Below, piece after piece: positions 29,367-50,007 of a stretch of DNA of 64,000 nucleotides. Source of the DNA: Rhodobiaceae bacterium (GTDB taxonomy: Bacteria; Pseudomonadota; Alphaproteobacteria; Parvibaculales; Parvibaculaceae). Position numbers and translations under genes: made by a program. The number at the start of each line of letters is the position of its first letter. Within the stretch, counting starts at the first letter, position 1. The stretch spans positions 62,001 through 126,000 of the forward strand of contig JAAWWE010000002.1 of NCBI GenBank assembly GCA_021404525.1. The letters run 5' to 3'. The notes under the pieces are model-generated. The model made no database searches. It was not told the origin of the DNA and was given only the letters and a program-made list of their open reading frames with translations.

Positions 29367-31514
29367 TCAGGCGAGGAACGCCCAATCCAGAGAGGACGTG
29401 TCGTCGATCGAGACAGTTTGGAAGGCGTCTGCCGTCAGGTCCGTAAACAGGACACCGTCTCCCTCTACCCCATTGAAAGAGGCAAAGGACAGAAAGGCAC
29501 CTTCGTCGGTATCTGTAAAGGCGGACATGAAATCGACATCGTTCAGATAGAGCGTGTCTGATAAGGCAAGAATGTCGATCCCAATGTCGAAGTCGCGAAT
29601 GATGTCGTAGCCATCGCCGATGTCGAAATAGAATGTATCTGAGGCATTGTCCTGGCGCCCCAGCTCGGCGCCCCACAATTCGTCGTCACCGGCACCACCA
29701 TTCAGTTTATCGCTGCCTTTGCCGCCTCGTAGGCGGTCGTCGCCTTGGTCCGCGTAAAGGGTGTCTGCTCCACTAGCGCCGTTCAGATAGTCATTTCCAG
29801 CCCCACCATAGACGGTGTCGTCTCCTGCATGCCCGGCAATATAGTCATTGCCATCGCCACCGGAGAGTGTGTTCGCTTTGTTGCTGCCGATGATCTTGTC
29901 ATTGTGAGATGATCCGATCAGGTTCTCGATGCCTGTAAGCGTGTCGGTGCCGTTTCCGAGGACCGTGCCCTCGGCAAGGTTGGCGCGGATCCCCTTGGAC
30001 CAAGATTGATAGTCGACGGTATCGATGCCAGAACCGCCATGAATTTGGTCACTGCCGGTTCCGCCATCGAGAATGTCATCGCCGCTGTGGCCGTAGAGAG
30101 TGTCGTTGCCACTTCCGCCGAGAAGGGTGTCGTCGCCGGATCCGCCCAACAACTCATCATTGCCAGAGCCTCCGTCCAGGTGGTCTGACCCGCTATTGCC
30201 AGATAGTTCATCGCTGCCGACACCTCCTGTGAGAGTGTCACTTCCGCTGCCGCCGCTTAGTTCGTCGCTGCCATTGCCGCCGTCGAGCACATCATCACCA
30301 CTGCCGCCGCTCAGGATATCATTGCCGTGCTCGCCTAAAAGGGTGTCGTTCCCGGCCGATCCTTCAATTCGGTCGTTATTGCCGCCACCATTCAGGTAGT
30401 CGTCGCCGGAATTGCCATACAGGTGATCATCACCATTGTCGCCATAGACGACGTCATCGCCGAGGTTTCCGTAGAGCACATCATTGTTGGAACCGCCATG
30501 GAGTATGTCGTCGCCGCTTCCGCCATGCAGCTCGTCGTTTCCTGTTCCTCCGTAAAGCTGATCATTGCCTTTGTGGCCCCATAGCTCGTCAGAGCCAGTA
30601 CCGCCATAGAGGATGTCATTGTCCTGAACGGGGTCTGTGTTGGGCGCGCTGCCATCTCCGTCATGGACATTGTCAGGCAGACCCTGCTCAAACCGATAAT
30701 GTGCGTTTAGAACTTGCGCGTTTGCGGTACCGATATCGACCGTGAATACCGAGTCGTCAAAGTCCCTGTCGCCACCATTGTATAAGTCCTCAAAGCCCAA
30801 CGTCAGCGTGCCAGCGTCGGTCTTGAGGATGCCCGTTGTATGTAGGATGCCGTCTGGATTGAGACCGAGCGTGTCGTCAAAAGCAGCTGTGTGATACTGG
30901 TGGTGCCGGATTTCTGTGACAGTGCCATCGTCGCTTGTATGCACAAGCTTGGGGTTGATGCTTGTCAGGCTCGCAGCTGATCCGTCAGTGTCAATGAAAC
31001 TATAGGATCCCTCTCCAAGGGCGTCATAGTTGTTGTAGCTGTACCCATTGGAAACGATGAAAAACCCAAGCTGATCGCCAGGAGCGACATCAAGCGGAAC
31101 CGTTGTCTCCCCGCCGATCAGACTACCACCACTTCCTTGAAGCGAGGCATTTTCCCAGATCACATCAACGTCGTAGATGGCGCCAGTTTCAGAATCGATT
31201 TTGTAGTAACCAAAACTGTTGCGGTAGCCGGCCGTCTCCCCCTCAAAAATCACCGATACTGGATAATCATTGGCAATGGGGATAGCTGTAACTTGAACAA
31301 TGTTCGGACCGCCGGATCCATAGAGGAAGTCGTTGCCGCTATTTCCATAGAGTACGTCATCGCCCTGGCCACCCCAGACTTCGTCATGCCCGGTCTCGCC
31401 TGTCATAACATCATCGCCGCGTCCGCCAGACATGACGTCTGAGTGTCGCGTTCCTGAAATTGTATCGTTGTTTGGTGTTCCGATAAGTGGATGTGTTGCA
31501 GGTAAACTGGCCAT
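29367..31514 (-). CDS. Secreted RTX (calcium-binding repeat) protein with DUF4114 domain
   Basis: This 715-residue acidic protein opens with a short block of GGxGxDxxx nonapeptides, then a beta-rich domain (about residues 75-270) with the DUF4114 signature LGFEDLYNGGDRDFDDSVF. About 350 residues of RTX repeats (GGSGDDxLxGG) follow, and a C-terminal tail with ASDTFYFDIGDGYDIIRDFD and a final aliphatic/acidic end, as in type I secretion substrates. RTX repeats fold on Ca2+ outside the cell. The start at the ATG at 31514 has AAAGGGACGGGAC upstream; 80 further codons in the frame are unlike the family. It is probably exported by the ABC/HlyD pair at 50008-52706 and may bind the polymer. An alginate epimerase catalytic module is not present. 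Confidence 0.85.
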   Translation of the reverse strand: MASLPATHPLIGTPNNDTISGTRHSDVMSGGRGDDVMTGETGHDEVWGGQGDDVLYGNSGNDFLYGSGGPNIVQVTAIPIANDYPVSVIFEGETAGYRNSFGYYKIDSETGAIYDVDVIWENASLQGSGGSLIGGETTVPLDVAPGDQLGFFIVSNGYSYNNYDALGEGSYSFIDTDGSAASLTSINPKLVHTSDDGTVTEIRHHQYHTAAFDDTLGLNPDGILHTTGILKTDAGTLTLGFEDLYNGGDRDFDDSVFTVDIGTANAQVLNAHYRFEQGLPDNVHDGDGSAPNTDPVQDNDILYGGTGSDELWGHKGNDQLYGGTGNDELHGGSGDDILHGGSNNDVLYGNLGDDVVYGDNGDDHLYGNSGDDYLNGGGNNDRIEGSAGNDTLLGEHGNDILSGGSGDDVLDGGNGSDELSGGSGSDTLTGGVGSDELSGNSGSDHLDGGSGNDELLGGSGDDTLLGGSGNDTLYGHSGDDILDGGTGSDQIHGGSGIDTVDYQSWSKGIRANLAEGTVLGNGTDTLTGIENLIGSSHNDKIIGSNKANTLSGGDGNDYIAGHAGDDTVYGGAGNDYLNGASGADTLYADQGDDRLRGGKGSDKLNGGAGDDELWGAELGRQDNASDTFYFDIGDGYDIIRDFDIGIDILALSDTLYLNDVDFMSAFTDTDEGAFLSFASFNGVEGDGVLFTDLTADAFQTVSIDDTSSLDWAFLA

Positions 31515-31553
31515 GTCCCGTCCCTTTGCTGGTTTTGCGATCCTGGAGGGGGT

Positions 31554-31569
31554 TTCAAACGTTATGCCA
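31554..31569 (-). promoter_or_regulatory. Candidate sigma-54 promoter of the RTX gene (weak -12)
   Basis: On the - strand the sequence reads TGGCAT, five bases, TTGAA. The -24 element fits sigma-54, but the -12 GC pair is GA. Support comes from its geometry: it ends 40 bases before the RTX start, exactly as the similar site of algD does, and its -24 is 83 bases from the nearest TTGCA-like box, mirroring the 81 bases on the other side. Confidence 0.4.
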
Positions 31570-31643
31570 ACAGGACCGTCAGCGAATACCGCTGATTTCG
31601 GCCAGTTTGAGCCAGGGTAGCTTCGCGAGAGGTGACGGGTGTT

Positions 31644-31701
31644 TTGCATGTCGCGACGGTGTGACCGCAGGGTGCAAATAGAGTGGATTCGCACCTTGCA
31701 C
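31644..31701. promoter_or_regulatory. Array of three TTGCA-N3-TGCAA-like boxes (RTX/alg44 divergent region)
   Basis: TTGCA TGT CGCGA (31644), CCGCA GGG TGCAA (31665) and TCGCA CCT TGCAC (31689) each differ from TTGCA-N3-TGCAA at two of ten positions. Centres are 21 and 24 bases apart. The array is centred between the two divergent sigma-54-like promoters (81 and 83 bases from the outer box centres to the -24 elements), the position expected for an enhancer-type activator. Confidence 0.5.
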
Positions 31702-31774
31702 TTCAGCCAATGAGCTTGAGAACAAAAGCGGCGGATCGCTGCCGCAAATAGCACAATTCATGGCACCTACTTTG

Positions 31775-31790
31775 TGGCATGGGCCTTGCT
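31775..31790 (+). promoter_or_regulatory. Sigma-54 promoter of the alg44-alg8-like operon
   Basis: TGGCAT GGGCC TTGCT has GG and GC exactly 12 bases apart and matches the -24/-12 consensus at all but one core base. Transcription would begin near 31801, so the protein start must be the ATG at 31818 and not the earlier in-frame ATG at 31779, which lies inside the promoter. Confidence 0.82.
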
Positions 31791-31817
31791 CCCTTTACCC
31801 TGAAAGGAGCCAAAGGA

Positions 31818-33404
31818 ATGAAAGTCATTCGGGAACGACCCTGCCAGCGTCGACACCATCGTGTTACGGCTCCGTTGCGCATTGACGCAGAAACGTTGAG
31901 TGCTCACCAGACCGTCAATTGGAGCCTGGGTGGCTTCAGGATTGATCAGGTTGATGGCGCCTTGCCAGATGTGGGGCAGGAGTTCTCAGTCCGGATCGAA
32001 CTGCCATTCCAGGGATTCGATATCAAATTTGAGGCAGAGACCCGTGTGGTTCGTACAGCGGATGTCACGAAATCTGTCTGCGTTGAATTCATCTCGCTAG
32101 ATGAACGCTCGCGCGATTTGATGAAACACTTCGTTGAAGACCTCATTCGCGGAAAAATGGCCACGATTGACGACACGATCTGTCGGATCGATGTTCCCGT
32201 GACGCCCATCTCGACGCAACCCGACCCAAACCCACCAGAGGAGATGGCGGTTACACGCTGGCCTATCAAAACCATTGCCATGAGCAGCTTTTATGCGGCC
32301 CTTGGGCTCTGTGTATTTGGATATCTGAGTGTGTTGATCTATTCGAGCTTCACCCAGCTTGAAGTATCGACGGCGGTTGTCTCTGCGCCGGTGCAGGTTA
32401 TGCGGATGCCGGTAGACGGGATCTATCGGCCGGTCGGCTATGCTGAAGGCGCCAGCGTGCGTGCAGGCGATCCGCTGGCCCATATTGATGACATGCGCTT
32501 ACAGGCAAAGATTAGTGAAGCGACCGCAAATGTCACCCAGGCGCAGGATCGTCTGTGGCGCGCAGAACAAACGTTCGAATTGGAATCGGAGCGGATCAAG
32601 CTCTATCAGGTGATCAGCCAGGTAGACAAAGACATGGCCGCCGCACAGGTTACCGCGCGGACGGAAGCACTCCGCGCAGCCGACGCCCACCTTCAGCGTA
32701 TGAAAACGCTATGGGACAGGGGTTTTTCGACCAATGCCCAGCTAGATGATGCAAAGGCACGCCAGAGTCTCGCCGCCGCGAGGCTTCGTGAATCTGAACT
32801 CGCTCTTGAGCAGTCAACGGTTATGAATGAAGTAGCGGGCAGACGACACTATAATCATAAGGAGTTCGTCTCCGACCTCGACATGCTGTTGATTGAGGTT
32901 GATGAGCGCCGGAGTGACCTTCAGGCAGCCAGACAAAAACTTGAAACACTCGAAACCATGAAAGATGAGTTGGTCGTCCGCGCGCCGTTTGATGGCCGGA
33001 TTGTTCGGTTGATGCAGACAGGTTCTGCAAGTGTGCTGAGGGATGAGCCCCTAGCAGTGCTGGAGATGAATGCACCAACGACGGTGACCGCATTCTTACA
33101 GCAGGAAGAAGTTCTCCAGGTTGGTTTGAATGATGAGGCCACCGTCTTTCTTCCGTCACTTGACCGTTATGTCCAAGCGGAAGTTGTGCGCATTGACCGG
33201 AGTTCTGCTTATCTGGACGAAAAGCAGGCGCAGTATAGCTGGCGTCCTGAGGATGAACGGACGGCGACTGTATCGCTGCGGATTCAAGGAGACCCAGCAG
33301 ACGTGGCGGACTTCCGCACAATTCGTCCAGGCCTTCCGGCCGTTGTGGTCTTCAATCGTCGATCCAGCAGCGTTTCTCAGGCGCAGCTCGCCAGAAGCCT
33401 TTAA
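31818..33404 (+). CDS. Alg44-like c-di-GMP receptor and membrane-fusion protein (PilZ-HlyD)
   Basis: This 528-residue protein joins a PilZ domain to a HlyD-type periplasmic part through one membrane helix (about residues 157-180), the layout of alginate copolymerase Alg44. PilZ residues for c-di-GMP are visible: RxxxR at R11-R15 and the NxSxxG variant of DxSxxG at N34-G39. After the helix come a biotinyl-lipoyl half (PVQVMRMPVDGIYRPVGYAEGASVRAGDPLAHID), a long coiled coil (about 240-385), and the second half (VVRAPFDGRIVRLMQ). Unlike many HlyD proteins, the PilZ domain is cytosolic and N-terminal. The gene is first in an operon with the Alg8-like synthase, 3 bases apart. Function as c-di-GMP-gated activator of polymer synthesis is inferred from Alg44. 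Confidence 0.85.
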   Translation: MKVIRERPCQRRHHRVTAPLRIDAETLSAHQTVNWSLGGFRIDQVDGALPDVGQEFSVRIELPFQGFDIKFEAETRVVRTADVTKSVCVEFISLDERSRDLMKHFVEDLIRGKMATIDDTICRIDVPVTPISTQPDPNPPEEMAVTRWPIKTIAMSSFYAALGLCVFGYLSVLIYSSFTQLEVSTAVVSAPVQVMRMPVDGIYRPVGYAEGASVRAGDPLAHIDDMRLQAKISEATANVTQAQDRLWRAEQTFELESERIKLYQVISQVDKDMAAAQVTARTEALRAADAHLQRMKTLWDRGFSTNAQLDDAKARQSLAAARLRESELALEQSTVMNEVAGRRHYNHKEFVSDLDMLLIEVDERRSDLQAARQKLETLETMKDELVVRAPFDGRIVRLMQTGSASVLRDEPLAVLEMNAPTTVTAFLQQEEVLQVGLNDEATVFLPSLDRYVQAEVVRIDRSSAYLDEKQAQYSWRPEDERTATVSLRIQGDPADVADFRTIRPGLPAVVVFNRRSSSVSQAQLARSL

Positions 33405-33407
33405 GCC

Positions 33408-34997
33408 ATGGCGGTGCGGCTCGATACGGTTCTCAATATTGATGATCCGACCCACTGGCCAACAGGGTGGGCTAAATGGAGTCCGATGGTGTTGACCCAT
33501 CTCGCCCTCTACTTTGCCATCTGTCTGCTTTGTATTCTCGTCCTTCCAAATAGCATCTGGGATGCAGAAACGCGTGCGATCACGCTTGTGATCGGGACCC
33601 TCGGCATCTGGCGGTATGGCTGGTGGTTTACCCACGCCTTTCGTGCCTTCCTGTTCGGGCGGTTCGTCTATCCAAAGATGCGGCAACAGGGTGAAGAAGT
33701 CTGGGCTGCCGGCTGGCGGCCCCGCCATCTCCACTTCATGATGACGACGTACAAAGAACACCGGTCAATCACAGAAAAAGTGGTGCGGTCTATTCTGCGA
33801 GAGGTGAGGAAATCCGGTGTACCGGCAACCATATGGCTCGGTTCGTCAGACAGATTTGATGAAGACATTATCGAAGACTTCCTCGAGCGTGAGGCGGGCG
33901 ATATCGATCTGACCCTTAGAATTATCCGACAGAATGTTCCGGGGAAACGTGCTGCCATCGGCCTTGTGCTGCGCGCCATGTGTCGCTTGCCCATCGAACA
34001 AGATGATCTCATCGTCTTTATGGACGGCGATTTCATATTAGGGGAGGGTGCTGTCAGCCGCTGCATGCCGTTGTTCCAGATTGACCCCGAGCTGGAAGCC
34101 TGCACCACCGATGAAGAAGTGATCTGCATCGGACCGCGATGGATTGAGACGTGGTTAAAGATGCGGTTTGCGCAGCGACGCATCGCCATGCAATCCCATG
34201 CCATGTCCAACCGGGTGCTGACCCTGACAGGTCGTATGTCTGTGTTTCGCGCGAAACACTTGTTGCAGCACGAGTTTATCCGCCTGCTGGAGGCGGACCA
34301 TCTTGAGCATTGGCTGTGGGGTAAGTTTCGCTTTCTCTCAGGAGATGACAAGAGCACCTGGTACTACATGCTCAAACACAATGCGCGTATGACTTATGTC
34401 CCTGATGCACTCGGGTACACTGTGGAAGTCATTGAGGGCTCAGGCCTTGATCGCATGGTGCAGAATTTCCGGCGCTGGTCGGGGAACATGCTGCGCAATG
34501 GGGCACGGGCCATACGCCTTGGGCCGAGCCGGATGCCGTTCTTTATCTGGTGGTGTTTGGTCGACCAACGTCTGTCCATGTGGACCATGCTCGTATCGCC
34601 GGTGCTGGCGGTTCTCGCGACGGCTATCCAGGGAATTTCTTACGCGATCTCCTATATCATTTTTATCGCTGTCAGCCGGATGCTGCTGTCACTCTTCCTC
34701 TACAACTATTCCCGCTGCGTCCACATGGCCTATCCGTGGATCCTGTTTTTTAATCAGCTTATTAATGCATCGGTGAAGGTCTATTGCATCTTCAGATTGT
34801 CCAAACAGCGGTGGACAAACCGAGGCAATCAATCAGCGGGCATGGACGGTGCGTCATGGGTCGAGATATCGCGAAACGCGATGGCGAGCTGGTGCACCGC
34901 CGTATCTGTTGCAATCCTGGTGGTGGCGACCATGCACTACGCAAATCTGGTGGCACCCCCGACTCTGATTTCCCTGCGCGCCCTTGGATTGGGTTAA
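33408..34997 (+). CDS. Alg8-like membrane glycosyltransferase (family GT2)
   Basis: This 529-residue processive glycosyltransferase has two N-terminal membrane helices (about residues 28-65), a cytosolic GT-A domain and four or more C-terminal helices (about 375-520). The catalytic signature is complete: LGSSDRFDED near 145, FMDGDF with the DxD at D206/D208, a TED-like region LEADHLEHW (about 294), and QNFRRW at 352-357 followed by SGNMLRNG, close to the RRW..NMLR of Alg8. Together with AlgD and AlgA in the same cluster it most likely polymerises GDP-mannuronate. GDP-mannose or another sugar nucleotide remains possible. It starts 3 bases after the Alg44-like gene with no separate ribosome site, so translation is probably coupled. 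Confidence 0.85.
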   Translation: MAVRLDTVLNIDDPTHWPTGWAKWSPMVLTHLALYFAICLLCILVLPNSIWDAETRAITLVIGTLGIWRYGWWFTHAFRAFLFGRFVYPKMRQQGEEVWAAGWRPRHLHFMMTTYKEHRSITEKVVRSILREVRKSGVPATIWLGSSDRFDEDIIEDFLEREAGDIDLTLRIIRQNVPGKRAAIGLVLRAMCRLPIEQDDLIVFMDGDFILGEGAVSRCMPLFQIDPELEACTTDEEVICIGPRWIETWLKMRFAQRRIAMQSHAMSNRVLTLTGRMSVFRAKHLLQHEFIRLLEADHLEHWLWGKFRFLSGDDKSTWYYMLKHNARMTYVPDALGYTVEVIEGSGLDRMVQNFRRWSGNMLRNGARAIRLGPSRMPFFIWWCLVDQRLSMWTMLVSPVLAVLATAIQGISYAISYIIFIAVSRMLLSLFLYNYSRCVHMAYPWILFFNQLINASVKVYCIFRLSKQRWTNRGNQSAGMDGASWVEISRNAMASWCTAVSVAILVVATMHYANLVAPPTLISLRALGLG

Positions 34998-35166: not shown

Positions 35167-36465
35167 ATGCGGCACCCTCGAAAACATCCCCTTGCTTACG
35201 CTTTGGTTCTTTGTCTGGCCCTTGCCGCTGGACTTGGACCCACGGTTTTCAATTTTGTGGTGGATCCATATGACCGCAATGGGTGGTTTGATCTGGGGAT
35301 CGAAAAGGCCTCGCTCAGCGAAAAGGCGCATTACCCACTCTGGAAGATGCTGCGCTACAGCGCGAAAAGCCCAAGTCTTATTGTTTTGGGAGATAGCCGG
35401 GCGCGGGCTCTGCGGGACAAATACTGGCATGAGGCCGGGCGGACCGATGCGTTCAACTTTGCCTATGGCGGTGCCACCGTGCAGGAGATCCATGAGACTT
35501 TTGAGTATGTGAAAGCGAACCCGGATATCGACACCCTGATTGTCGGCATCCAGCTCCGAAGCTTCGACCTTGATCATAAAGGCGGTATGAACCGGGTGCC
35601 CGAAGCGATTGAACTGACAGAAGGGGCGTTCAACTATTATACAAGTTGGTTTGTCGCGAAGATTGGCTGGCGCCATGTTGCAACCGAGTTCGAGTTAGAC
35701 CCAGCGACATGGGCGCTCACATGGCCCAGCCTGATCGGTTCAGCACAAGCGGCCGGCCGAGGTGCAAACGACCGCCTGACCCTGTTCGACCTGCTGAGCC
35801 CGGAAGCCTGCCTCGGGTGTGAGCTGCCTGAGGTGCAACAGACCGCGTTCACGGTCGGTCCGGGGGTAAACCTTGGATTGGGACGAGGATATGGTGCCTG
35901 GTCGCGGCTTTGGCCGGCGATAAATCTGGATCGCGACCTGCCTGCGAAATTTGCCCGTCAAGTAGAACGCAATGCGCGGTCGGACTGGAGATCGTTCAAT
36001 TTTTCTGAAGAACTCTGGTTAAAGCTCAACGAGATTTCGGTTTGGAGCCGGGAAAACAATGTTGAGTTGGTATTCGTCATTCCGCCGACAATTTCGGAGA
36101 TGCAAGAGCGGATCACTGAATTCGGTTTTGGCATCCTCAATCATGACTTCAGACTGCGCCTCGCAGAACTCGCGCCCGTCGTCGACTTTGATTTCGACAA
36201 TGCACTGACCCGCGACATCTCCAGGTTTTCCGATGCTTATCATTTCAATGCCGCCGCCTCACGCGAAATTGTCGGTGAACTTGTGATGTTCACCGGTTCG
36301 GACGAGAAGGCGCAAGTCCGGTTACGCAGCAATCGCGGTTCTTTGCGCTGCCCCGTCTTCACGGATGACACCACCGACCGTCTGTCCGACGGCCGTGTGG
36401 TGATGAAGCAGGGTGTGGGGTGCCGCATTTGGTCGAAGGAAGGAGCTCAACATGACATCCGATAG
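35167..36465 (+). CDS. Membrane-anchored SGNH-hydrolase-like protein, putative polymer O-acetylation partner
   Basis: This 432-residue protein starts with a hydrophobic helix (about residues 9-32) and continues in the periplasm. An SGNH-type nucleophile block VLGDSRAR lies near residue 74 and the matching Asp-His pair in FSDAYHFN at D356/H359; these are the two ends of the SGNH active site. Periplasmic SGNH proteins of this sort (AlgX, AlgJ, DltD class) take acyl groups from an MBOAT partner, and an MBOAT gene follows in the same operon. Sequence similarity to AlgX or AlgJ themselves is not obvious. A Cys pair (CLGC) is present near residue 216. The gene overlaps the Sel1 gene by 14 bases. 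Confidence 0.75.
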   Translation: MRHPRKHPLAYALVLCLALAAGLGPTVFNFVVDPYDRNGWFDLGIEKASLSEKAHYPLWKMLRYSAKSPSLIVLGDSRARALRDKYWHEAGRTDAFNFAYGGATVQEIHETFEYVKANPDIDTLIVGIQLRSFDLDHKGGMNRVPEAIELTEGAFNYYTSWFVAKIGWRHVATEFELDPATWALTWPSLIGSAQAAGRGANDRLTLFDLLSPEACLGCELPEVQQTAFTVGPGVNLGLGRGYGAWSRLWPAINLDRDLPAKFARQVERNARSDWRSFNFSEELWLKLNEISVWSRENNVELVFVIPPTISEMQERITEFGFGILNHDFRLRLAELAPVVDFDFDNALTRDISRFSDAYHFNAAASREIVGELVMFTGSDEKAQVRLRSNRGSLRCPVFTDDTTDRLSDGRVVMKQGVGCRIWSKEGAQHDIR

Positions 36466-37675
36466 AACGCAGACCTCTCCAATCATACTGATTCTAATCT
36501 TCGGCCTAGTAATGTTCGGCTTCTTGATTGCTGGATTTCTGACGCAGCCATCCGATGGTGGTTTTCAGGACCTGAGTGCTCCGATTGACCCTGTCGTCGA
36601 GGAGCGCATTCGACAGGCGCGCGGCCTTCAGCGTTTGGGCAAGTGGCAGGATGCTGCAGACATTTTGCATCCGCTGGTCGCCCAAGGTCACCCATTGGCT
36701 ATATTCCATCTCGGCAAAGCCTATGGGCGTGGATGGGGCGTGCCTGCTGACTTGGATCAGTCTCGCGAACTGCTGCTCAGAGCTGCCCAGTTCGATTTTC
36801 CCTATCGTGGTGAGACGGCTTATGAGATTGGCCGACTCTATCAGCGTTCGGTCGGCGAAGATTGTCCACGATACGCATTTGAGTGGTTTCAGCGGGCAAT
36901 CGACTGGAACTATCCCAAAGGCCATGTGCAGATCGCCAAGCACTATGAAAACGGTCTGGGCGTAGAGCAGGATATCTCCTCGGCTCTCTATCATTATGAA
37001 GCGGCAACAGCTGCCGGGTTTGAAAGTGCTGCTTTGAGTTTTGCCCGGGCCCTCCGGGCCGGCCGTAACGGAATACCGGCAGAGCCTCTCCGCGCCGCTA
37101 TGTTGGCTGATGCTGCGATCTCTGCACTGAGACTGAAGGCGTCGACCGGATCAGCGAGCGCCGCAAAACTGCTTGGCCGCCTATTTCGTGATGGCGATTT
37201 TGTTGATCGAGATACCGATGTCGCACTGCATTGGCTGCGTCGCGCCAGTGACCTTGGCGACAGTGGCGGCATGCATGACTTCGCCCATCTTTTAATTGCA
37301 ACACTGCCTGAGCACGACTCCGAGATGGACGCGCTTGTCTGGCTACGCCGTGCGGCAGCCCTTGGCCATGGCGGGGCGATGACCTCTCTTGGAAGATTTC
37401 ATCTGCGGGAGCAATTCGGTCTCCACCGGCCGGGTGCTGTGTCCTGGTTGGAGCGCGGCGTGATTGCACGCCATGGCGGTGCGATGGAAGAACTCGCGAG
37501 GCTCACTGCGAACGGTGACCTGGTCGAGCTTGACCTGGCAGCCGCACTTGATCTCGCGAAGCAGGGTGCTGCTTTGGGTCACAGAGGATCTGAACGCCTG
37601 CGCAATGAGTTGCTTGACCGCGCTCAAGGTGTGCCATCAGCCGCCGTTATGCCCCTCAGCGCTGAGAATTCCTAA
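36452..37675 (+). CDS. Sel1-repeat periplasmic protein, AlgK-like
   Basis: This 407-residue protein has one N-terminal membrane helix (about residues 11-31) and then Sel1/TPR-type repeats to the end, for example HPLAIFHLGKAYGRGWGVPADLDQSRELL and GHVQIAKHYENGLGVEQDISSALYHYE. AlgK, the alginate TPR/Sel1 scaffold, is a lipoprotein that places the AlgE porin; here the protein lacks a lipobox Cys and would stay in the inner membrane. The ATG at 36452 follows AAGGAAGGAGC inside the end of the SGNH gene; the open frame starts 13 codons earlier. The role as a scaffold of the synthase complex is inferred from order and repeats. Confidence 0.75.
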   Translation: MTSDRTQTSPIILILIFGLVMFGFLIAGFLTQPSDGGFQDLSAPIDPVVEERIRQARGLQRLGKWQDAADILHPLVAQGHPLAIFHLGKAYGRGWGVPADLDQSRELLLRAAQFDFPYRGETAYEIGRLYQRSVGEDCPRYAFEWFQRAIDWNYPKGHVQIAKHYENGLGVEQDISSALYHYEAATAAGFESAALSFARALRAGRNGIPAEPLRAAMLADAAISALRLKASTGSASAAKLLGRLFRDGDFVDRDTDVALHWLRRASDLGDSGGMHDFAHLLIATLPEHDSEMDALVWLRRAAALGHGGAMTSLGRFHLREQFGLHRPGAVSWLERGVIARHGGAMEELARLTANGDLVELDLAAALDLAKQGAALGHRGSERLRNELLDRAQGVPSAAVMPLSAENS

Positions 37676-37699: not shown

Positions 37700-39205
37700 A
37701 TGGTTTTTAGTTCCCTTGAGTTCATCTATCTCTTTCTTCCGCCGACGCTGATTGGCTTTCTTATTCTCCGAGCCATGGGTTGGGAGCGGGGCATCATCTG
37801 GTGGCTGATCGCGGCGTCCCTGGCCTTTTACGCCTGGTGGAGTGTGGCTCATCTCGCATTACTTCTCGGGTCAGTCGGCGTCAACTATGCCTTTCATCGA
37901 GAGCTGGTCAGGCGAAAGAGCAAAGCAGTTTTGGCGGTCGGCATAACGGCCAACCTGGCAACTCTGGCTTATTTCAAATATGCAGACTTCCTGCTGCAGA
38001 ATGTGAACGCGGCGGTCGGAGCTGAACTCCCCATGTTGGGGATCATCCTGCCGCTGGCGATTTCTTTCTATACGTTCCAGCAGATCTCGCTGCTCCACGA
38101 CACCTACGTGGGGAAAGTCGAAGAGTGCGATTTCTCACGTTACTTCCTGTTCGTTGTTTTCTTTCCGCAGCTGATTGCGGGCCCGATCGTGCTGCAAAGA
38201 GACACGATCCCCCAGTTTAAGCTTGCAATTTTCCAAAGCCGCTTATTCGTCAATCTGACTGTCGGTGGCACTTTGTTCGCCATAGGCCTGTTCAAGAAGA
38301 TCGTGCTGGCCGATGGGATCGCACCTATTGCCAACAGCGTGTTTGCTCTCGCCGATAGTGGACAAGCAGTGCCGCTGGAAGCAGCCTGGATGGGCGCAAT
38401 TGCTTACACCTTCCAGATCTACTTCGACTTTTCCGGTTATTGCGATATGGCACTTGGTCTCGCGCGCCTGTTTGGCATTCGCCTGCCGATCAATTTCTAT
38501 TCGCCTTACAAGGCCCTTTCTATCGTGGACTTTTGGCGCCGCTGGCACATGACCCTCTCACGGTTCTTGCGGGAGTATCTTTACATTCCGCTTGGCGGGA
38601 ACCAGAAAGGTGAGACGCGCCGCTACATCAACCTTTTCGCAACGATGGTGCTTGGCGGTCTTTGGCACGGCGCCAGCTGGAATTTTGTGATCTGGGGCAT
38701 GCTGCACGGCTGTTTCCTCACCGTGAATCACGCCTGGAGCGGAAGTGTCGGGAGATCGGGTCTTTTTGATGCGGTACCTGTTGTCGTCCGTAGGGCTTCA
38801 GCCCAGGCGATCACGCTCCTTGCAGTCATCATTGCCTGGGTCTTCTTCCGGGCAGAGACATTTGACGGCGCCATTCTGGTGCTTGAAGGCATGTTCGGAT
38901 TGACGCGCTTCCATCAGGTAAGTCTATGGGACCCGATCCTCGCGGACACCGGCCTGTTCTGGAGCCAGTGCCTCATGCTTGCCTTTGTCGTCTTGTTTGC
39001 GCCAAACGCCATTGAGCTGGTGCGGAAGTACAGGCCTGTTGTGGACATGCATCAGATCGCCGAAGGGCTTCGCGCCCTTGGACGGAAGACCTTCTGGCGC
39101 CCATCGCCGGCCTGGTCGGTTGCGGGCTTCGTGGTTGCCCTGACGGGCATTATCCAGATGTATCGCTTGGATGATCTAACCGAATTCATCTATTTCAATT
39201 TCTGA
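37700..39205 (+). CDS. MBOAT O-acyltransferase, AlgI-like
   Basis: This 501-residue polytopic protein belongs to the membrane-bound O-acyltransferase family. It begins with the typical MVFSSLEFIYLFLP stretch of AlgI, DltB and related proteins. The segment SFYTFQQISLLHDTY and FFPQLIAGPIV are family landmarks, as are the FQIYFDFSGYCDMALGLARLFGI and NFYSPYKALSIVDFWRRWHMTLSRFLREYLYIPLGG-type blocks. The catalytic His is in LWHGASWNFVIWG (H323). It would bring acetyl groups across the inner membrane for the SGNH partner. AGAAGGA precedes the ATG. It is in the operon that starts at the 35119 promoter. Confidence 0.92.
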   Translation: MVFSSLEFIYLFLPPTLIGFLILRAMGWERGIIWWLIAASLAFYAWWSVAHLALLLGSVGVNYAFHRELVRRKSKAVLAVGITANLATLAYFKYADFLLQNVNAAVGAELPMLGIILPLAISFYTFQQISLLHDTYVGKVEECDFSRYFLFVVFFPQLIAGPIVLQRDTIPQFKLAIFQSRLFVNLTVGGTLFAIGLFKKIVLADGIAPIANSVFALADSGQAVPLEAAWMGAIAYTFQIYFDFSGYCDMALGLARLFGIRLPINFYSPYKALSIVDFWRRWHMTLSRFLREYLYIPLGGNQKGETRRYINLFATMVLGGLWHGASWNFVIWGMLHGCFLTVNHAWSGSVGRSGLFDAVPVVVRRASAQAITLLAVIIAWVFFRAETFDGAILVLEGMFGLTRFHQVSLWDPILADTGLFWSQCLMLAFVVLFAPNAIELVRKYRPVVDMHQIAEGLRALGRKTFWRPSPAWSVAGFVVALTGIIQMYRLDDLTEFIYFNF

Positions 39206-39212
39206 GGGTCAC

Positions 39213-41159
39213 ATGAAAAAGACGTCTCGCGCTGCCCTTGTGGCAGCGCCCCTTGCTTTTGCTTTTGGTATGCCAGCTGCGGCGGAGACGCCCGGCTGGC
39301 AGATTGCTGTTTCCGGCAAAGACTTTCTTTACAACACAGCCTCCAGGCTCGTGACGACCAAGGGTGTTTCCGCACCTGGTCTGATGGGTGTGTCGCGGGC
39401 AGGCGGCCATGAAGTGAGGACTTTCTGGGCTGCCAGGGGCTTTGGTCCCACCATAACGTTTGACGGAACCGTTATTGCAGATGGTCAGGATACAGAATCC
39501 GTCGCGCGTATTACGGGATTCAGGTTCGACCGGTCTGGGGACCATGTCTATCTGCGGAGCGGCAAAGGACCAGCGGCCAAAGTTGAGCTCATGCTCAATG
39601 GTGAGCCGGTTTATGAATGGCCAAGACTGTCCATTGTCAGCGTCCTTTCCTTTAAGCAGGGGAGAGCAACTGTCTCTGTCTTTGATCGTGATACGCAGAC
39701 AACGGGATTTTTCGACCTGTCCAACCTTTCTGGTGAAACGAATGGCGGTGAAACCGTCGTGACGCCGCTTGGAGATGTTAAGGACTGCGCCGTTCTGGGG
39801 TCAAAAGTCCTGGACGATGGGATTGCCCTGCAACTTTTTTGTAGCGCGACCCAGGGAAGCGATGTTCATTTTTTGTCATTCAAGACGGGTCAATTGGAGC
39901 CGGTGATGGTAGGGGAGGCCGACTCCCTTTTTGCCTTTCAGCTCGGCCGCGAGAAGGGTGCGATCTCTGTCCTGTCGGTTGACGGGAGTGATAATGCCCG
40001 TCGCCTGTTTCACGCGATTTATGGGGCGGTCTTGAAGGATCTTGGGGAACCCATGTCCCGTGCAAGTGATGGGGCAGGAAAACAGAGCTGGAGCCAGAGC
40101 TATCGGACGCTAACATTAGCTCGTCTTTATGAGGTGACGAGGCACCCAGCTTTTGCTGCGCTGACTGTCGGTGCCATGGAAAACACGTTGACGCAAACCA
40201 ACTCGAATGCCGGCATATCCGGACCTGCCAATCCTCCCTGTGCCTGGGCATCCCGCATTTACTCGCGTGACAAGGCCACACCCATCTCGTTGCTCATCAA
40301 TCAGGCGATGATTGCTGGTAGCCTGACAAACAGCTGCACGCGTTTGGGTGAGGAATGCGGGCCAGATCTCTCGGCCCGGATTGAAGAGTCCGGTCAGTGT
40401 CTGGTTGACTCCTATGAAAACGATTTCGACGCCGACGAAGGCCTCTATCGCATCCCCTATGGGGTGGAATTCCGGTATGACGGAGTCGTCGCGCCCTGGA
40501 ACTGGCAGGCCCGTTGGGCGGGTTTTCTGCACCAGTTCGGCACCACCTCGGAGCAGCCTGCGCTGCAGACACGGGCACTCTCACTGGCTGGTAAGTTTAC
40601 CGAGACTTGGCAGGAAGCGACTGATGGGGCTCTGTGGCGCTACTGGACGCCAAACTATTATCGCGGCTGGTCTGAGGCCGATCAGGTTTCTCTGTACCGT
40701 CCGCGTCAGAAACCCGATCCGGATGGGCGATATGAAGATTTGAACCATGCGGGTATCAGCCTGTTGGGCCTTTCAGAGATCGACGGTGTTTTGAGCGTCG
40801 GCAAACGAGTTCAGGTGACGAACCGCCTGGCAAACCTCCTCACGGAAGAGAAATTCCTTGCGCGAGATATGGATGGATCCGGTCCGCGCAGTCCCCGCTG
40901 GAGGCCGGGTGCTGGATGGGATCTGGTCGCGTCTGAAGAGATGAAACGCCTGTATGCGCACCTATTGCCCGGCAGCGTGTCAAGCGATCAGCATCTGGCT
41001 TACGCCAACCTTTTCGATCCAGAAGACGCGTTTGAGCTTAGCCTGAGTTTCTCCTATTGCGAGGTTGGTGGGTGTCAGGAGCAGCAAACCTGGAGGTTCA
41101 CCTCAGTCGATGACTTCCTACAAGGTAACCCTCTGTTTGAGATAACACCTCTTCAGTAG
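39213..41159 (+). CDS. Secreted protein of unknown family, possible polysaccharide-processing enzyme
   Basis: I do not recognise this 648-residue protein. It has a clear signal peptide (KKTSRAALVAAPLAFAFG, cleavage near AAAE at about residue 24). The first 280 residues look like beta strands with repeated short motifs. From about 290 the pattern becomes helical with Trp/Tyr-rich segments (QSWSQSYRTLTLARLYEVTRHP, WQARWAGFLHQF, ALWRYWTPNYY) and an acidic EDLNHAGI near 517, which recalls alpha/alpha-toroid enzymes such as some lyases and glucuronyl epimerases. Several Cys pairs are present. It closes the MBOAT operon, 7 bases downstream, where alginate clusters keep AlgL or AlgG. That makes a lyase or epimerase role attractive but unproven. 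A terminator follows. Confidence 0.6.
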   Translation: MKKTSRAALVAAPLAFAFGMPAAAETPGWQIAVSGKDFLYNTASRLVTTKGVSAPGLMGVSRAGGHEVRTFWAARGFGPTITFDGTVIADGQDTESVARITGFRFDRSGDHVYLRSGKGPAAKVELMLNGEPVYEWPRLSIVSVLSFKQGRATVSVFDRDTQTTGFFDLSNLSGETNGGETVVTPLGDVKDCAVLGSKVLDDGIALQLFCSATQGSDVHFLSFKTGQLEPVMVGEADSLFAFQLGREKGAISVLSVDGSDNARRLFHAIYGAVLKDLGEPMSRASDGAGKQSWSQSYRTLTLARLYEVTRHPAFAALTVGAMENTLTQTNSNAGISGPANPPCAWASRIYSRDKATPISLLINQAMIAGSLTNSCTRLGEECGPDLSARIEESGQCLVDSYENDFDADEGLYRIPYGVEFRYDGVVAPWNWQARWAGFLHQFGTTSEQPALQTRALSLAGKFTETWQEATDGALWRYWTPNYYRGWSEADQVSLYRPRQKPDPDGRYEDLNHAGISLLGLSEIDGVLSVGKRVQVTNRLANLLTEEKFLARDMDGSGPRSPRWRPGAGWDLVASEEMKRLYAHLLPGSVSSDQHLAYANLFDPEDAFELSLSFSYCEVGGCQEQQTWRFTSVDDFLQGNPLFEITPLQ

Positions 41160-41275: not shown

Positions 41276-42721
41276 TTACCAGGAGATGCCCTGATATCCG
41301 CTGTCGTCTGGAAGGTCGTCGAACAAGCGTACTAGATCAATGACCTGCGTCCCAGGCCGGCGGCTCTGGACTGCCTGGCGATAGAGTTCCGACTTGTGGG
41401 AGACCACAAGCACGTCGCAGTTTCCGACGAGCTGACACACCGAGTCCGTGAGGGTGTGGTCCAAAGCGTCGATCACACCAGCAAGCTCCGGACGGGCTCC
41501 TGAGATGTAATTCAGCTGGGAGTTAAGGTCGGTGCTTTCGGTGAGGTTTGGATCGTAAGCGGTGATCTCATACCCGTCGTCATGAAGTCGGGCCATCACG
41601 TCAAGTGTGGGGCTCTCGCGCAGGTCGTCGGTGTCGGGTTTGAAGGTTACGCCGAGAAAGCCAACCTTCTTGCGGTTCGTGGCCTCAATCATGTCCAGCG
41701 CGATTTCTACCTGCGCTAGGTTGCTTGGCGTCAGACTTTTAACAAGCGGTGTTTTGATACCCAATTGTGTTGCCAGATGTTCCATGGCGCGCACTTCTTT
41801 GGGGAGACACGACCCGCCAAAAGCAAAGCCTGGCTTGAGATAGTAGGGCGACAGATTCAGTTTCTGATCCTGAACAAACACATTCATGACCTCGTGACTG
41901 TCTATCCCGAGTGCCTTGCAAAACCGACCTGTTTCATTGGCGAAGCTAACTTTCGTCGCGTGCCAGACATTATCGACATACTTCACCATTTCCGCCGCTG
42001 CGATCGTGACGATGAGAGGCGTGGTATCGACGGGTCTATAGATTTCGGCCAACACCTCCGCGGCGCGACAGTCGGAGGCGCCGATGACTGTTTTTGGTGG
42101 TTCGTAGAAGTCTGCGACCGCGGTGCCTTCGCGCAGGAATTCCGGGTTGAAGCAGATACCGAATTCGTTGTTGAGTGTTTTGCCCGATGCTTTTTCAATT
42201 TCTGGCACCATCGTGTCCATTGTTGTCCCTGGAGGGACCGAACAACGCATAACGACAACATGGTAAGAACTCTTGTGTCGTATTGCTTCGCCGATAGACC
42301 GGGCTGCCGCCACGACATAGGAGAGGTCACAACCTCCATCTTTGGAAGTTGGTGTGCCGACTGAGACAAAAGTCACATCAGTGTCAGCGACGGCTTGCTG
42401 AAAGTTGCGTGAGGCTGAAATCAACCCGTTGCCGATGCCTGCCTGAAGCATGTCCTCAAGCCCTGCTTCGACGATAGGTGCTCGACCGTCATTGATGGCG
42501 TCCACCTTGTTCATGTCCAGATCGATGCCATGAATAGGGTGTCCTAGCTCTGACAAACAGGCCATGGAAACAGCGCCGACATAGCCCAGGCCGATCACGC
42601 TGATTGCCGGCGGTGTATCGTTTGGTATTGGCGCGAGGCGCGGGGCCCGCGCCGTCACGGGGAAGGGGATGGTTTTATGTGTCGCTGCGCTGTCGCGGAG
42701 CCTGTTGATATGCATGTTCAT
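41276..42721 (-). CDS. algD: GDP-mannose 6-dehydrogenase, AlgD-like
   Basis: This 481-residue enzyme oxidises GDP-mannose to GDP-mannuronate, the committed step for alginate. The Rossmann signature VIGLGYVGAVSMACLSELGH (about residues 41-60) is nearer to AlgD than to UDP-glucose dehydrogenases. The catalytic Cys is in FGGSCLPKEVRAME (C305), and the later GVTFKPDTDDLRESP is conserved. I choose the ATG at 42721 because GGGAGACC lies before it; an ATG at 42772 lies in a candidate promoter. A 35-residue, Pro/Ala-rich extension precedes the Rossmann fold, which is unusual. It diverges from algA. Assignment to GDP-mannose over UDP-sugars is supported by the neighbouring algA. Confidence 0.87.
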   Translation of the reverse strand: MNMHINRLRDSAATHKTIPFPVTARAPRLAPIPNDTPPAISVIGLGYVGAVSMACLSELGHPIHGIDLDMNKVDAINDGRAPIVEAGLEDMLQAGIGNGLISASRNFQQAVADTDVTFVSVGTPTSKDGGCDLSYVVAAARSIGEAIRHKSSYHVVVMRCSVPPGTTMDTMVPEIEKASGKTLNNEFGICFNPEFLREGTAVADFYEPPKTVIGASDCRAAEVLAEIYRPVDTTPLIVTIAAAEMVKYVDNVWHATKVSFANETGRFCKALGIDSHEVMNVFVQDQKLNLSPYYLKPGFAFGGSCLPKEVRAMEHLATQLGIKTPLVKSLTPSNLAQVEIALDMIEATNRKKVGFLGVTFKPDTDDLRESPTLDVMARLHDDGYEITAYDPNLTESTDLNSQLNYISGARPELAGVIDALDHTLTDSVCQLVGNCDVLVVSHKSELYRQAVQSRRPGTQVIDLVRLFDDLPDDSGYQGISW

Positions 42722-42760
42722 GTCTGGTCTCCCATTTGAAATCGTTTCCAAACAGGGCTT

Positions 42761-42776
42761 TTCAAATGGCATACCA
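42761..42776 (-). promoter_or_regulatory. Candidate sigma-54 promoter of algD (weak -12)
   Basis: On the - strand the sequence is TGGTAT GCCAT TTGAA. As at the RTX gene, the -24 part is good and the -12 GC reads GA. It ends 40 bases before the algD ATG. Its -24 is about 74 bases from the nearest TTGCA-like box (centre 42848). Confidence 0.4.
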
Positions 42777-43077: not shown

Positions 43078-44532
43078 ATGACAAATATTACACCGGTTAT
43101 CCTCGCGGGCGGCGTCGGCAGCCGCCTTTGGCCTTTATCGCGAAGCGAATGTCCGAAACAGTTCCGCCGTTTCGGGACGGAGAAGACGATCTTTCAGATG
43201 ACCGCTTGCCGGTTTAAGGAAGCGTTTGTTGAAGCTCCGATTATTGTGACCTCTGGAGAGTTTGAGGCCCTTATCAGGACTCAACTGGCTGAGGTTGGTG
43301 TGGTACCCAGCCTTATCATTAAGGAGCCGGTAGGTAGGAACACGGCACCAGCCATTATAGCTGCTGCGATCTGCGCCAGATGGCGTGACAGGGGTGATGC
43401 GCTCCTTGTGTTGCCTTCGGATCACCTCATAGAGGAAGGGGAGTTGCTCTCATCAGCGCTTCAGTCGGCTAAGGAGGCAGCTGAGCGTGGTCGTTTGGTT
43501 ACTTTTGGCGTGACTCCAACCCGGCCTGAAAGTGGTTATGGATATATTGAGAGCGGTGATAGTGACGGGCCTGGCAGCCGCCGGGTCGCTGCCTTTATCG
43601 AAAAACCGCCTATTGAGCGTGCTGTCGAACTCATTTCCGATGGCAGCCACCTGTGGAATAGCGGCATGTTTCTATTACCTATCCGTCCGCTGCTGTCAGA
43701 GTGCCAGCGTCTGGTCCCATCTCTCCTTGATGGGTGCGCGCGGGCGCTGGCGAAGGGCCAAGCAAACAGTGCCATCGTGATGCCGGATGCGGCCTTGTTT
43801 GCAGAGATTGAACCGCTGTCCATTGATCATGCTGTGATGGAGAAGACGGACCTTGCGTCTGTCGTGCGTCTGGACGCGGACTGGACCGACCTGGGATCCT
43901 GGCATGCTGTCTGGCACACCATGGCCCAGGATGATCAGGACAATGCCTGCCTGGGAGATGTGGTCCTACAAGATACGAAACGAAGCCTGGTCTACAGTCC
44001 TGACCGGCTTACCTGCGTCGCCGGGTTAGAGGATGTGGTTGTTGTCGATACTGGGGATGCGCTTCTTGTCACTCATCGTGATGCCAGTCAGGACGTCAAA
44101 CAGCTAACGGAGCGCCTCCGCAAGGACGGTCGCACAGAACTGGATACGCCAGCCATTGTCCAGCGGCCGTGGGGTACCTATCAGTCTGTGGATACTGGTC
44201 CAGGTTTTCAGGTGAAACGTATAACCGTCGCTCCCGGCGGGTGCCTGTCTTTGCAATACCATCACCAACGGTCTGAACATTGGACCGTTGTGTCTGGTGT
44301 TGCCCATGTCCTCGTGGGCAAGGTTGAAGAACAGCTAAGCGCCAATCAATCGGTGTACATTCCTCAAGGTGAGATCCATCGCCTTGAAAACAAAGGGGAT
44401 CAGCCGGTCACCCTTATCGAAGTTCAGTGTGGCGCCTATCTCGGCGAAGACGACATTGTTCGTCTGGAAGATGTCTACGGTCGAACCGAGGAGACGCAAG
44501 GCAGAGCAATACCTTCTGTGGCAGCAGAGTGA
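43078..44532 (+). CDS. algA: Mannose-1-phosphate guanylyltransferase / mannose-6-phosphate isomerase (type II PMI-GMP)
   Basis: This 484-residue bifunctional enzyme converts fructose-6-phosphate to mannose-6-phosphate and mannose-1-phosphate to GDP-mannose, feeding AlgD. The guanylyltransferase signature LAGGVGSRLWPLSR (about residues 8-21) with PKQF and the FIEKPP mannose-1-phosphate site (about 174) are complete. The C-terminal cupin isomerase domain shows GGCLSLQYHHQRSEHWTVVSG (about 389), including the metal-binding Gln-His-His-Glu-His pattern. RPWGTYQSVD opens that domain. No phosphomannomutase (AlgC) is present in the window. The gene is first in a + strand unit with the NUDIX gene, 11 bases downstream. 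Confidence 0.93.
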   Translation: MTNITPVILAGGVGSRLWPLSRSECPKQFRRFGTEKTIFQMTACRFKEAFVEAPIIVTSGEFEALIRTQLAEVGVVPSLIIKEPVGRNTAPAIIAAAICARWRDRGDALLVLPSDHLIEEGELLSSALQSAKEAAERGRLVTFGVTPTRPESGYGYIESGDSDGPGSRRVAAFIEKPPIERAVELISDGSHLWNSGMFLLPIRPLLSECQRLVPSLLDGCARALAKGQANSAIVMPDAALFAEIEPLSIDHAVMEKTDLASVVRLDADWTDLGSWHAVWHTMAQDDQDNACLGDVVLQDTKRSLVYSPDRLTCVAGLEDVVVVDTGDALLVTHRDASQDVKQLTERLRKDGRTELDTPAIVQRPWGTYQSVDTGPGFQVKRITVAPGGCLSLQYHHQRSEHWTVVSGVAHVLVGKVEEQLSANQSVYIPQGEIHRLENKGDQPVTLIEVQCGAYLGEDDIVRLEDVYGRTEETQGRAIPSVAAE

Positions 44533-44543
44533 TAGAGGCGCAG

Positions 44544-45086
44544 ATGAACAACTGGCTCGTGGAAAACAACGAAATCGCCTTTCGGGCGCATAAGGGACTG
44601 GCTGTGCACAAACAAAGGGTACGGTTGCCCAATGGGCGAAAGGTGTCGGACTTCTATCAGATATGTATGGATGACTTTGTGTCGATTGTTGCGGTCACTA
44701 CCTGTCAGAATGTTGTTGTACTCCGACAATACAAACACGGTGTGGGACAGGTTGGATTGACACTACCGGGTGGCGGAATAGAGGTCGGCGAGGAGCCGGT
44801 TGATGCCGCACAGAGAGAGCTATTGGAAGAAACGGGGTTTACAACGAACGCCTGGGTGTCATTGGGCAGCTTCGTTCTAAACGGTAACCAGCGAATTGCG
44901 CAGTCCCATGTTTTCCTGGCAACAGGATGTACTCAGATACAACCCCCCGCTGCTGGTGACCTGGAAGACATGCAGGTGATTACACAACCATGGAATGAAG
45001 TTCTTGTCGCCCTTAGAGAGAATGCATTTCCGATCATCTCCCATACAACAGCCCTAAGCCTGGCGGCTGTCCACGGTATTGATTGA
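44544..45086 (+). CDS. NUDIX hydrolase, ADP-ribose/GDP-mannose pyrophosphatase type
   Basis: This 180-residue protein contains a complete NUDIX box, GGGIEVGEEPVDAAQRELLEETGF (about residues 76-98, fitting GX5EX7REUXEEXGU). The layout with an N-terminal beta half resembles NudF/NudK-type nucleotide-sugar pyrophosphatases. Directly after algA it could trim GDP-mannose or GDP-mannuronate pools, but that is inferred from position. The ATG at 44544 follows GAGGCGCAG. The gene ends 33 bases inside the 3' end of the oppositely oriented response regulator gene; such a convergent overlap is uncommon. Confidence 0.78.
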   Translation: MNNWLVENNEIAFRAHKGLAVHKQRVRLPNGRKVSDFYQICMDDFVSIVAVTTCQNVVVLRQYKHGVGQVGLTLPGGGIEVGEEPVDAAQRELLEETGFTTNAWVSLGSFVLNGNQRIAQSHVFLATGCTQIQPPAAGDLEDMQVITQPWNEVLVALRENAFPIISHTTALSLAAVHGID

Positions 45087-46556
45087 AAGCTCACGCTCTG
45101 TAGTTTCGGTGTCATTCTTTTCCCAGGCTTCGCGTTTGCGGTAGATGGTTGAGGGGCTGACATCCAGCGCTTTTGCTGCCTTGGGAATGCTGCCACCACA
45201 ATGGGCAATGACTTTTTCAATTGTCTCTCGCTCTATCCGCATCAGGCTTTTGCCAAGTACCGTAACCGCAAGAGGTGAGCCGGTGGCTGGAGCGGCAACC
45301 GCTGCTGCTGACGGCACCAAGGTCGGAGCTGCTGCAGGTTGAGCTGACGCAGGGGATGTCAATGGCATCGACCGTCCAGTTCGGATGGCTTCGGGAAGCA
45401 TCTCAAGCGTCACAGCGTTGCTGTCATTGAGAACGATCATGTTTCGGACAAGGTTCTGTAGCTCCCGGACATTGCCAGGCCAGCCGTAGTTTGCGAGGGC
45501 ACCTAGGGCAGTGTCAGTGAAACCCGCAAACTTCTTCTTTTCTTCACCGCTGTAGGTTGCCAGAAAGTGGTTGGCAAGCTCTGAGATGTCGTTGCCACGC
45601 GCGCGGAGTGGGGGCAGATCAATCGGAATCACAAACAAGCGGTAGTAAAGGTCCTCACGGAACCGCCCAGCACGAACCTCTTCTGCGGGATCTCTGTTGG
45701 TTGCACAGACAACGCGTACGTCCACGTTTTCTATCTTGTTTGAACCCACCCGCTGGATGGTGTTGGTTTGAAGAAACCTCAGGAGCTTGGTCTGTAGTGT
45801 CAGGTCCATTTCACAGATTTCATCCAGAAACAGAGTGCCGCCATGTGCTTGGGTTGCAGCGCCTGCCCTGTCTGCGATGGCGCCTGTAAATGCGCCTTTC
45901 AGATGACCAAAGATCTCAGACTCGATGAGGTCTTTCGGGATGGCTCCGCAGTTAAGCGGCACGAAAGGCTTATTGTGACGCTGGCTACGGCGATGGATGG
46001 CTTCAGCGCAGATTTCTTTGCCTGTGCCGCTTTCGCCGGTGATGAAAACTGTTGCGTTGGAGCGTGCGACATTATCAATCGTGCGATAGACATTTTGCAT
46101 CTGCGGTGAGCTGCCGATGAAACCGAAATAGCTTTCACGGTCGAGGTTTTCATCGAGTTCATCGACTGCAATTTTCAACTGCACACTTTCCAAGGCATTG
46201 GAAGTTGTGGTCAGCAGCTTTTCTTTTGAGAAGGGTTTAACGAGAAAGTCAAAGGCACCGAGGCGCATGGCGTCAATGGCGACGTTGATGGATCCATTGG
46301 CTGTGATGATCACGACAGCCGCGTCTATGTTGTGACGCTTCACATACTCCAAGACAGTCATGCCGTTGGAGTCTGGCAGCTGCAGATCCAGCAAAACCAG
46401 AGAGAAGGAGCGCTCAGAGAGTGCGGATACCGCATCTGAGGCTGTTTCGACATGATCACAAGCGTAGCCTGCTGATGCCAATCGCTCGACATAGACAGTT
46501 GCCAATGAAAGCGTGTCTTCCACGATCAGGATGTTATGGGGGCTTTGGTCGGACAT
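45054..46556 (-). CDS. LuxO-like sigma-54-dependent response regulator
   Basis: This 500-residue NtrC-family activator has a receiver domain with phosphate acceptor D57 (LVLLDLQ) and K107 (LVKPFS). The AAA+ domain has Walker A GESGTGKE (174-181), the sigma-54 contact GAFTGA (221-226) and Walker B LFLDEI (242-247). A linker rich in Pro and Ala leads to a Fis-type helix-turn-helix (about 440-485) with KAAKALDVSPSTIYRKREAWEK. The recognition helix is close to that of Vibrio LuxO, which binds TTGCA-N3-TGCAA; two perfect copies of that site lie upstream of the kinase gene. It follows the kinase gene by 18 bases and is presumably its phosphorylation target. It is the likely activator of the sigma-54 promoters in this region. 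Confidence 0.9.
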   Translation of the reverse strand: MSDQSPHNILIVEDTLSLATVYVERLASAGYACDHVETASDAVSALSERSFSLVLLDLQLPDSNGMTVLEYVKRHNIDAAVVIITANGSINVAIDAMRLGAFDFLVKPFSKEKLLTTTSNALESVQLKIAVDELDENLDRESYFGFIGSSPQMQNVYRTIDNVARSNATVFITGESGTGKEICAEAIHRRSQRHNKPFVPLNCGAIPKDLIESEIFGHLKGAFTGAIADRAGAATQAHGGTLFLDEICEMDLTLQTKLLRFLQTNTIQRVGSNKIENVDVRVVCATNRDPAEEVRAGRFREDLYYRLFVIPIDLPPLRARGNDISELANHFLATYSGEEKKKFAGFTDTALGALANYGWPGNVRELQNLVRNMIVLNDSNAVTLEMLPEAIRTGRSMPLTSPASAQPAAAPTLVPSAAAVAAPATGSPLAVTVLGKSLMRIERETIEKVIAHCGGSIPKAAKALDVSPSTIYRKREAWEKNDTETTERELSINTVDSRQA

Positions 46557-46574
46557 GATACTCAGACGACTCCT

Positions 46575-49661: not shown

Positions 49662-49707
49662 TTGTAGGTCCTTTGCAACCTGGCCATTCATTTGTCTGTT
49701 CTGCAAA

Positions 49708-49723
49708 CGCATGTTCCAGGCCA
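49708..49723 (-). promoter_or_regulatory. Weak candidate sigma-54 promoter of the kinase-regulator operon
   Basis: On the - strand TGGCCT GGAAC ATGCG keeps GG and GC 12 bases apart but misses two bases in each element. Its -24 lies 81 bases from the centre of the first perfect TTGCA box (49797-49809), the same distance as at alg44. By sequence alone it would not be called. Confidence 0.25.
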
Positions 49724-49796
49724 TGGCCAAAGCTCCCGCTTTCGGGCCAAATTCCGGGATATTTCCGACCATATCTAAAGTATAGAGACGAAGTGT

Positions 49797-49973: not shown

Positions 49974-50007
49974 ACCCAAGGGTCAGTGATTGCAGGAGGC
50001 AAACAGC

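Follow-up and report, generated by a model that had tools for sequence, protein, structure and literature searches.

Each synthase-dependent secretion system encodes an enzyme able to degrade its own polymer (PMC8829089). In Pseudomonas, polymer is cleared from the periplasm by AlgL (PL5, PF05426), which folds as an (alpha/alpha)5 toroid with the catalytic His, Arg, and Tyr at H202, R249, and Y256 (PMC8829089). The PL27 architecture comprises an N-terminal beta domain and a C-terminal (alpha/alpha)6 domain (PMC8377490). In the genome of Candidatus Phaeomarinobacter ectocarpi, a single, unclassified polysaccharide lyase has been reported, and none of the characterised alginate lyases had a homologue there (PMC4110880). 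In this study, a 648-aa exported protein encoded in a 64,000-nucleotide stretch of Rhodobiaceae bacterium DNA (hereafter the window, to which all coordinates refer) was analyzed. Since a toroid was predicted, no known family was matched, and the gene lies at the end of an alginate-like operon, the protein is probably a new enzyme trimming or clearing the polymer of that operon.

The coding sequence (39213..41159, +) is a single-copy gene in the window's genome with orthologues in loci L009, L002, L010, and L011. It begins 7 bases past the MBOAT gene and is preceded by GAGG. The signal peptide (residues 1-24; 39213..39284, +), cut after PAAA, reads MKKTSRAALVAAPLAFAFGMPAAA|ET, the cleavage site being read from the sequence by eye; residues 1-25 were unstructured in the model, and all orthologues carry a hydrophobic leader as well. 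The ORF and signal peptide given in the preliminary description were thus borne out by the sequence and the orthologue leaders. The AlphaFold2 model also agreed with the description there of a first half rich in beta structure (strands 29-258) and a second half rich in helices (260-600). The predicted architecture comprises an N-terminal all-beta domain, possibly propeller-like in part according to the model and Foldseek (residues 27-258; 39291..39986, +), a C-terminal helical toroid-like domain delimited by the models, Foldseek, and clustered invariant residues (residues 259-601; 39987..41015, +), and a C-terminal beta tail (residues 602-648; 41016..41156, +). The EDLNHAGI motif noted earlier is present at residues 508-515 (40734..40757, +) and, by the alignment and model, lies at an inner-helix start. 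The short beta/helix tail modeled at residues 609-646 was absent from the earlier description.

The operon begins with an Alg44-like gene for a PilZ and HlyD-type adaptor (31779..33404, +; PF07238, PF13437) and an Alg8-like GT2 polymer synthase gene (33408..34997, +; PF13641). The synthase is 36% identical to the glycosyltransferase of the L044 alginate cluster, which also contains AlgF, two AlgX-type proteins, a PF05426 lyase, an MBOAT, and a dehydrogenase. A tree of the synthases places the window in an eight-member clade (100/100) joined to the canonical alginate synthases. Next come an SGNH-like protein gene (35167..36465, +) with GDS at 75, DxxH at 356, and no Pfam match over the cut-off, a Sel1-repeat protein gene (36413..37675, +; PF08238) with a weak match to AlgK NF038194 (E 3.5e-5, below the cut-off), and an AlgI-like MBOAT O-acyltransferase gene (37700..39205, +; PF03062) with His323 in WHG and 37% identity to an alginate-cluster MBOAT. 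The SGNH-like and Sel1-repeat proteins may take AlgJ/AlgX-like and AlgK-like roles, respectively, as judged from sequence. The operon thus has the MBOAT, SGNH, and Sel1 counterparts of the alginate O-acetylation module (AlgI, AlgJ/AlgX, AlgF, and AlgK), and the 648-aa protein is none of these. Its gene is the final one of the SGNH-Sel1-MBOAT run, as previously described, and the orthologous loci have the same arrangement. It is followed by an AlgD-type GDP-mannose 6-dehydrogenase-like gene (41276..42772, -), whose product matched the P. aeruginosa GDP-mannose dehydrogenase 1mfz at E 1.7e-121 versus 1.3e-80 for the best UDP-glucose dehydrogenase, and by a mannose-1-P guanylyltransferase/mannose-6-P isomerase (GMP/PMI) gene (43078..44532, +; TIGR01479 over the cut-off). 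The dehydrogenase and GMP/PMI together make the GDP-mannuronate supply well supported. With this supply, the Alg8/Alg44-type synthase pair, and the O-acetylation genes all present, the gene content supports a mannuronan/alginate-type operon. For AlgE, one short PF13372 match of 66 positions was found in the genome, on another contig beside a substrate-binding protein.

An RTX-repeat protein gene, which in the window (29367..31754, -) also encodes DUF4114, was found by locus comparison to accompany the synthase clade. It is a neighbor of the synthase at each of the eight clade loci (the window, L009-L011, and L039-L042), being partial at the contig end in L009. Its calcium-binding, secreted product could serve the polymer as a matrix protein.

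The gene of the 648-aa protein is real and conserved, but rare. Intact orthologues of 616-674 aa were found in five genomes of three families, the window's own included, so the ORF is more than a chance one. The four other genomes are alphaproteobacterial and keep the gene at the same place. Their identities to the window protein range from 58% (L009, a second species of the same genus, in the alignment) through 50% (L002, a Candidatus Phaeomarinobacter MAG, and L010 (G262)) down to 31% (L011, a distant genome of another family). Within the family, 2 of 40 genomes had the gene; within the class, 3 of 385 gave convincing matches; and a profile search across 398 genomes of the phylum matched the window's own genome only. 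The G084 and G378 matches (E 1e-3 to 1e-2, with stops) were judged to be due to chance. No relative was detected by tblastn of plasmids or a scan of viral contigs.

Searches of the protein and its profile against Pfam, NCBIfam, PHROGs, PADLOC, and PDB sequences gave nothing above noise. No PDB chain, BACCELL_00875 included, was similar in sequence at E up to 5 for the protein or 10 for the profile. A BiPBP_C match (E 0.041) was rejected, as it was below the cut-off and confined to one member. No paper on the family was found in the literature. The protein represents a family unmatched in the sequence libraries used, of a known fold class and in a known kind of operon.

Like AlgL, the protein is exported, has a predicted helical toroid, and is encoded with Alg8/Alg44/AlgD-type genes. 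However, the two share no sequence or profile similarity. PF05426 gave no match to the protein or its four orthologues at E up to 10, and hhalign of its profile against six AlgL-type sequences gave 0.1% probability. The conserved motifs differ as well: the AlgL order NNH ... R ... Y is missing, and the invariant R, Y, and H sit in other contexts. A link to AlgL by circular permutation, with the NH motif following the R/Y segment instead of preceding it, was considered but would be purely speculative. In addition, the window protein carries about 230 residues of beta structure at its N-terminus that AlgL lacks, and it is found only with the acetylation module. As it failed the AlgL sequence and motif tests, it was not placed in PL5.

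The AlphaFold2 model of the whole protein, built from a five-row alignment, had a pLDDT of 77.6 and a pTM of 0.84, and the C-terminal part modeled alone (pTM 0.83) had an identical helix order. For the whole model, Foldseek ranked the PL27 L-rhamnose-alpha-1,4-D-glucuronate lyase BACCELL_00875 (5no8, E 6.2e-6) first among PDB entries. This lyase likewise joins an N-terminal beta domain to a C-terminal (alpha/alpha)6 domain; at 10% identity and TM 0.24, the resemblance is one of fold only. The N-terminal domain of the PL27 enzyme is a beta-sandwich and the enzyme is catabolic, both unlike the window protein. The next carbohydrate-enzyme matches were GH116 and cellobiose 2-epimerase, and some unrelated large proteins were also listed. 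With the C-terminal domain alone, almost every leading match was a carbohydrate enzyme with an (alpha/alpha)6 toroid: GH105 YteR (E 7e-4, TM about 0.5), GH8, cellobiose 2-epimerase, PL27, GH88, GH76, and a P. putida endo-glucanase. The best toroid-domain matches, the GH105/GH88 unsaturated uronyl hydrolases and GH8, had TM-scores of about 0.4-0.5, 9-15% identity, and no Pfam match in the window protein; such scores support placing the C-terminal half of the model in a fold class, not in a family. For the N-terminal half, prolyl-oligopeptidase-type structures were also among the Foldseek matches, and the domain may be propeller-like. Against viral structures, nothing informative was found besides toroid enzymes. 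The likeness to alpha/alpha-toroid polysaccharide enzymes proposed in the preliminary description is therefore supported by the models and Foldseek with moderate confidence: a toroid was predicted and no unrelated family was confidently matched, with parts of the presumed active-site loops at pLDDT under 50.

Invariant residues gather in the part of the model that corresponds to the active site of toroid enzymes. Among the 110 residues of the loops that precede the inner helices, 51 were invariant, compared with 41 of 233 in the remaining helical part and 26 of 232 (11%) in the beta domain. The loop enrichment had a Fisher p of 5e-8, an optimistic value because the loops were delimited by hand on the model after the five-row alignment had been seen. 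The invariant loop motifs were ASDxAG..SWSQSYR, WAxRIYS, APWNWQ, EDxxHAGI, and DGxGP..PRW. Within EDLNHAGI, E508, D509, H512, A513, G514, and I515 were invariant and N511 varied. H512 and H267 were the sole invariant His of the helical domain; several Tyr, Arg, and carboxylates (E508, D509, D286, and D554) were also invariant. With such residues conserved, the putative active site could equally be that of a lyase (His/Tyr/Arg), a hydrolase (two carboxylates), or an epimerase. The invariant Cys pairs C192/C210, C375/C382, and C616/C621 fit an exported protein.

Among the loci read for this synthase family, an AlgL-like gene was found near the synthase in six (L041, L043, L044, L045, L049, and L050) and the gene studied here in five (the window, L009, L010, L011, and L002); the two were never together in any locus examined. 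L002 is a short contig that starts at Sel1/MBOAT and carries no synthase, and L040 ends at the synthase, giving no reading of the downstream gene. L041 (G393) shares RTX, NUDIX, response regulator, histidine kinase, dehydrogenase, PilZ-HlyD, and synthase homologues with the window and has a PF05426 lyase (E 6.5e-27) directly after the synthase. Neither gene was found within the 20 kb read at L039, the sister of L011 in the synthase tree, and at L042. The earlier statement that a periplasmic lyase or epimerase is required for alginate export was too strong, given these two loci and the tolerated loss of algL in the mucA22 P. aeruginosa background (PMC8829089). The proposal that a new family occupies the AlgL slot is favored by the AlgL-family lyase at the equivalent place in L041, but the gene tracks the acetylation module, not the synthase. 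It stands directly after MBOAT in all five loci, with SGNH-Sel1-MBOAT (MBOAT and Sel1 being seen in L002), and the RTX-clade loci without MBOAT also lack it. Together with L039 and L042, this strict company suggests that the protein may either belong to the acetylation module or be a lyase required for an acetylated polymer.

The first of these two options, a part of the acetylation machinery that binds the acetylated polymer or edits its acetyl groups and has no lyase activity, agrees with this co-occurrence and with AlgF, for which no gene was recognised in the window operon and one is present in the L044 cluster. We consider it unlikely, as no SGNH or esterase signature was found in the protein and the dense invariant W/R/Y/E/D/H in the modeled toroid loops look catalytic.

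Lyases and C5-epimerases have proton abstraction at C5 in common, and the protein could also be a uronan C5-epimerase converting mannuronate to guluronate in the polymer, that is, doing an AlgG-like job on another fold, as the D-glucuronyl C5-epimerase does. Toroid folds include epimerases, with cellobiose 2-epimerase among the Foldseek matches, and no AlgG-like gene adjoins the operon. The absence of a usual lyase or epimerase, as stated in the preliminary description, is confirmed for the lyase, PF05426 having no match anywhere in the window's genome; for AlgG it is tentative, as judged from the genes adjoining the operon and from the two Beta_helix (PF13229) matches in the genome, which lie on other contigs in proteins unlike AlgG. 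The parallel fold of AlgG, a right-handed beta-helix C5-epimerase, does not occur in the model of the window protein, which consists of a beta domain and a helical toroid. PF06662 (C5-epim_C, D-glucuronyl C5-epimerase) matched neither the protein nor anything in 142 genomes of the class, and the equivalent slot of L041 is filled by a lyase, so this activity appears rather improbable. Still less probable is a toroid-clan glycoside hydrolase acting on a neutral or mixed-sugar polymer with E508/D509 and D286 or D554 as carboxylates, which would accord with the invariance of these residues, the GH105, GH8, and GH88 domain matches, and the BcsZ and PslG-type hydrolases that fill such a role in other exopolysaccharide systems, but the nucleotide-sugar genes indicate GDP-mannuronate, where beta-elimination is the usual chemistry.

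The most likely reading, held with about even confidence, is that of a periplasmic uronan lyase linked to acetylation. The protein would belong to a new family of enzymes acting on polysaccharides, be periplasmic or possibly released, and join an N-terminal all-beta domain to an (alpha/alpha) toroid, with an active site in the funnel of loops before the inner helices. As substrate, it would use the acetylated mannuronan-type product of its own operon, and lyase action would clear or trim polymer left in the periplasm, the job done by AlgL in Pseudomonas. We infer catalysis, lyase chemistry, substrate, and periplasmic clearance from the model and the gene context. The broader proposal, that a new lyase or C5-epimerase family combining a beta domain and a toroid replaced AlgL in the RTX-associated acetylated-mannuronan clade and became adapted to the acetylated polymer, is tentative and falls a little short of an even chance. 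If the reading is right, the protein would represent a polymer-acting enzyme family recognised by none of the sequence libraries used, and the AlgL slot of synthase-dependent secretion would be open to unrelated sequences. Acetylation normally shields alginate from lyases, and an enzyme coupled to the acetylation module might serve to cut or edit the acetylated form.

Several other genes were observed around the operon. NUDIX, sigma-54 response regulator, and hybrid histidine kinase genes were found in the window (44427-49979), L041 (1-6447), and L039 (1-3742); the response regulators of the related loci were 50-57% identical, and the products of these genes probably control how the polymer is produced. 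A type I secretion pair, consisting of an ABC protein and an HlyD protein, is encoded near the operon (49990-52706, +). In L040, an HlyD protein 28% related to that of the window is encoded beside the RTX gene, so the ABC/HlyD pair may export the RTX protein. An autotransporter (PF03797) with repeated GSGALSITATGTVTS units is encoded at 24858-28358 (-) of the window.
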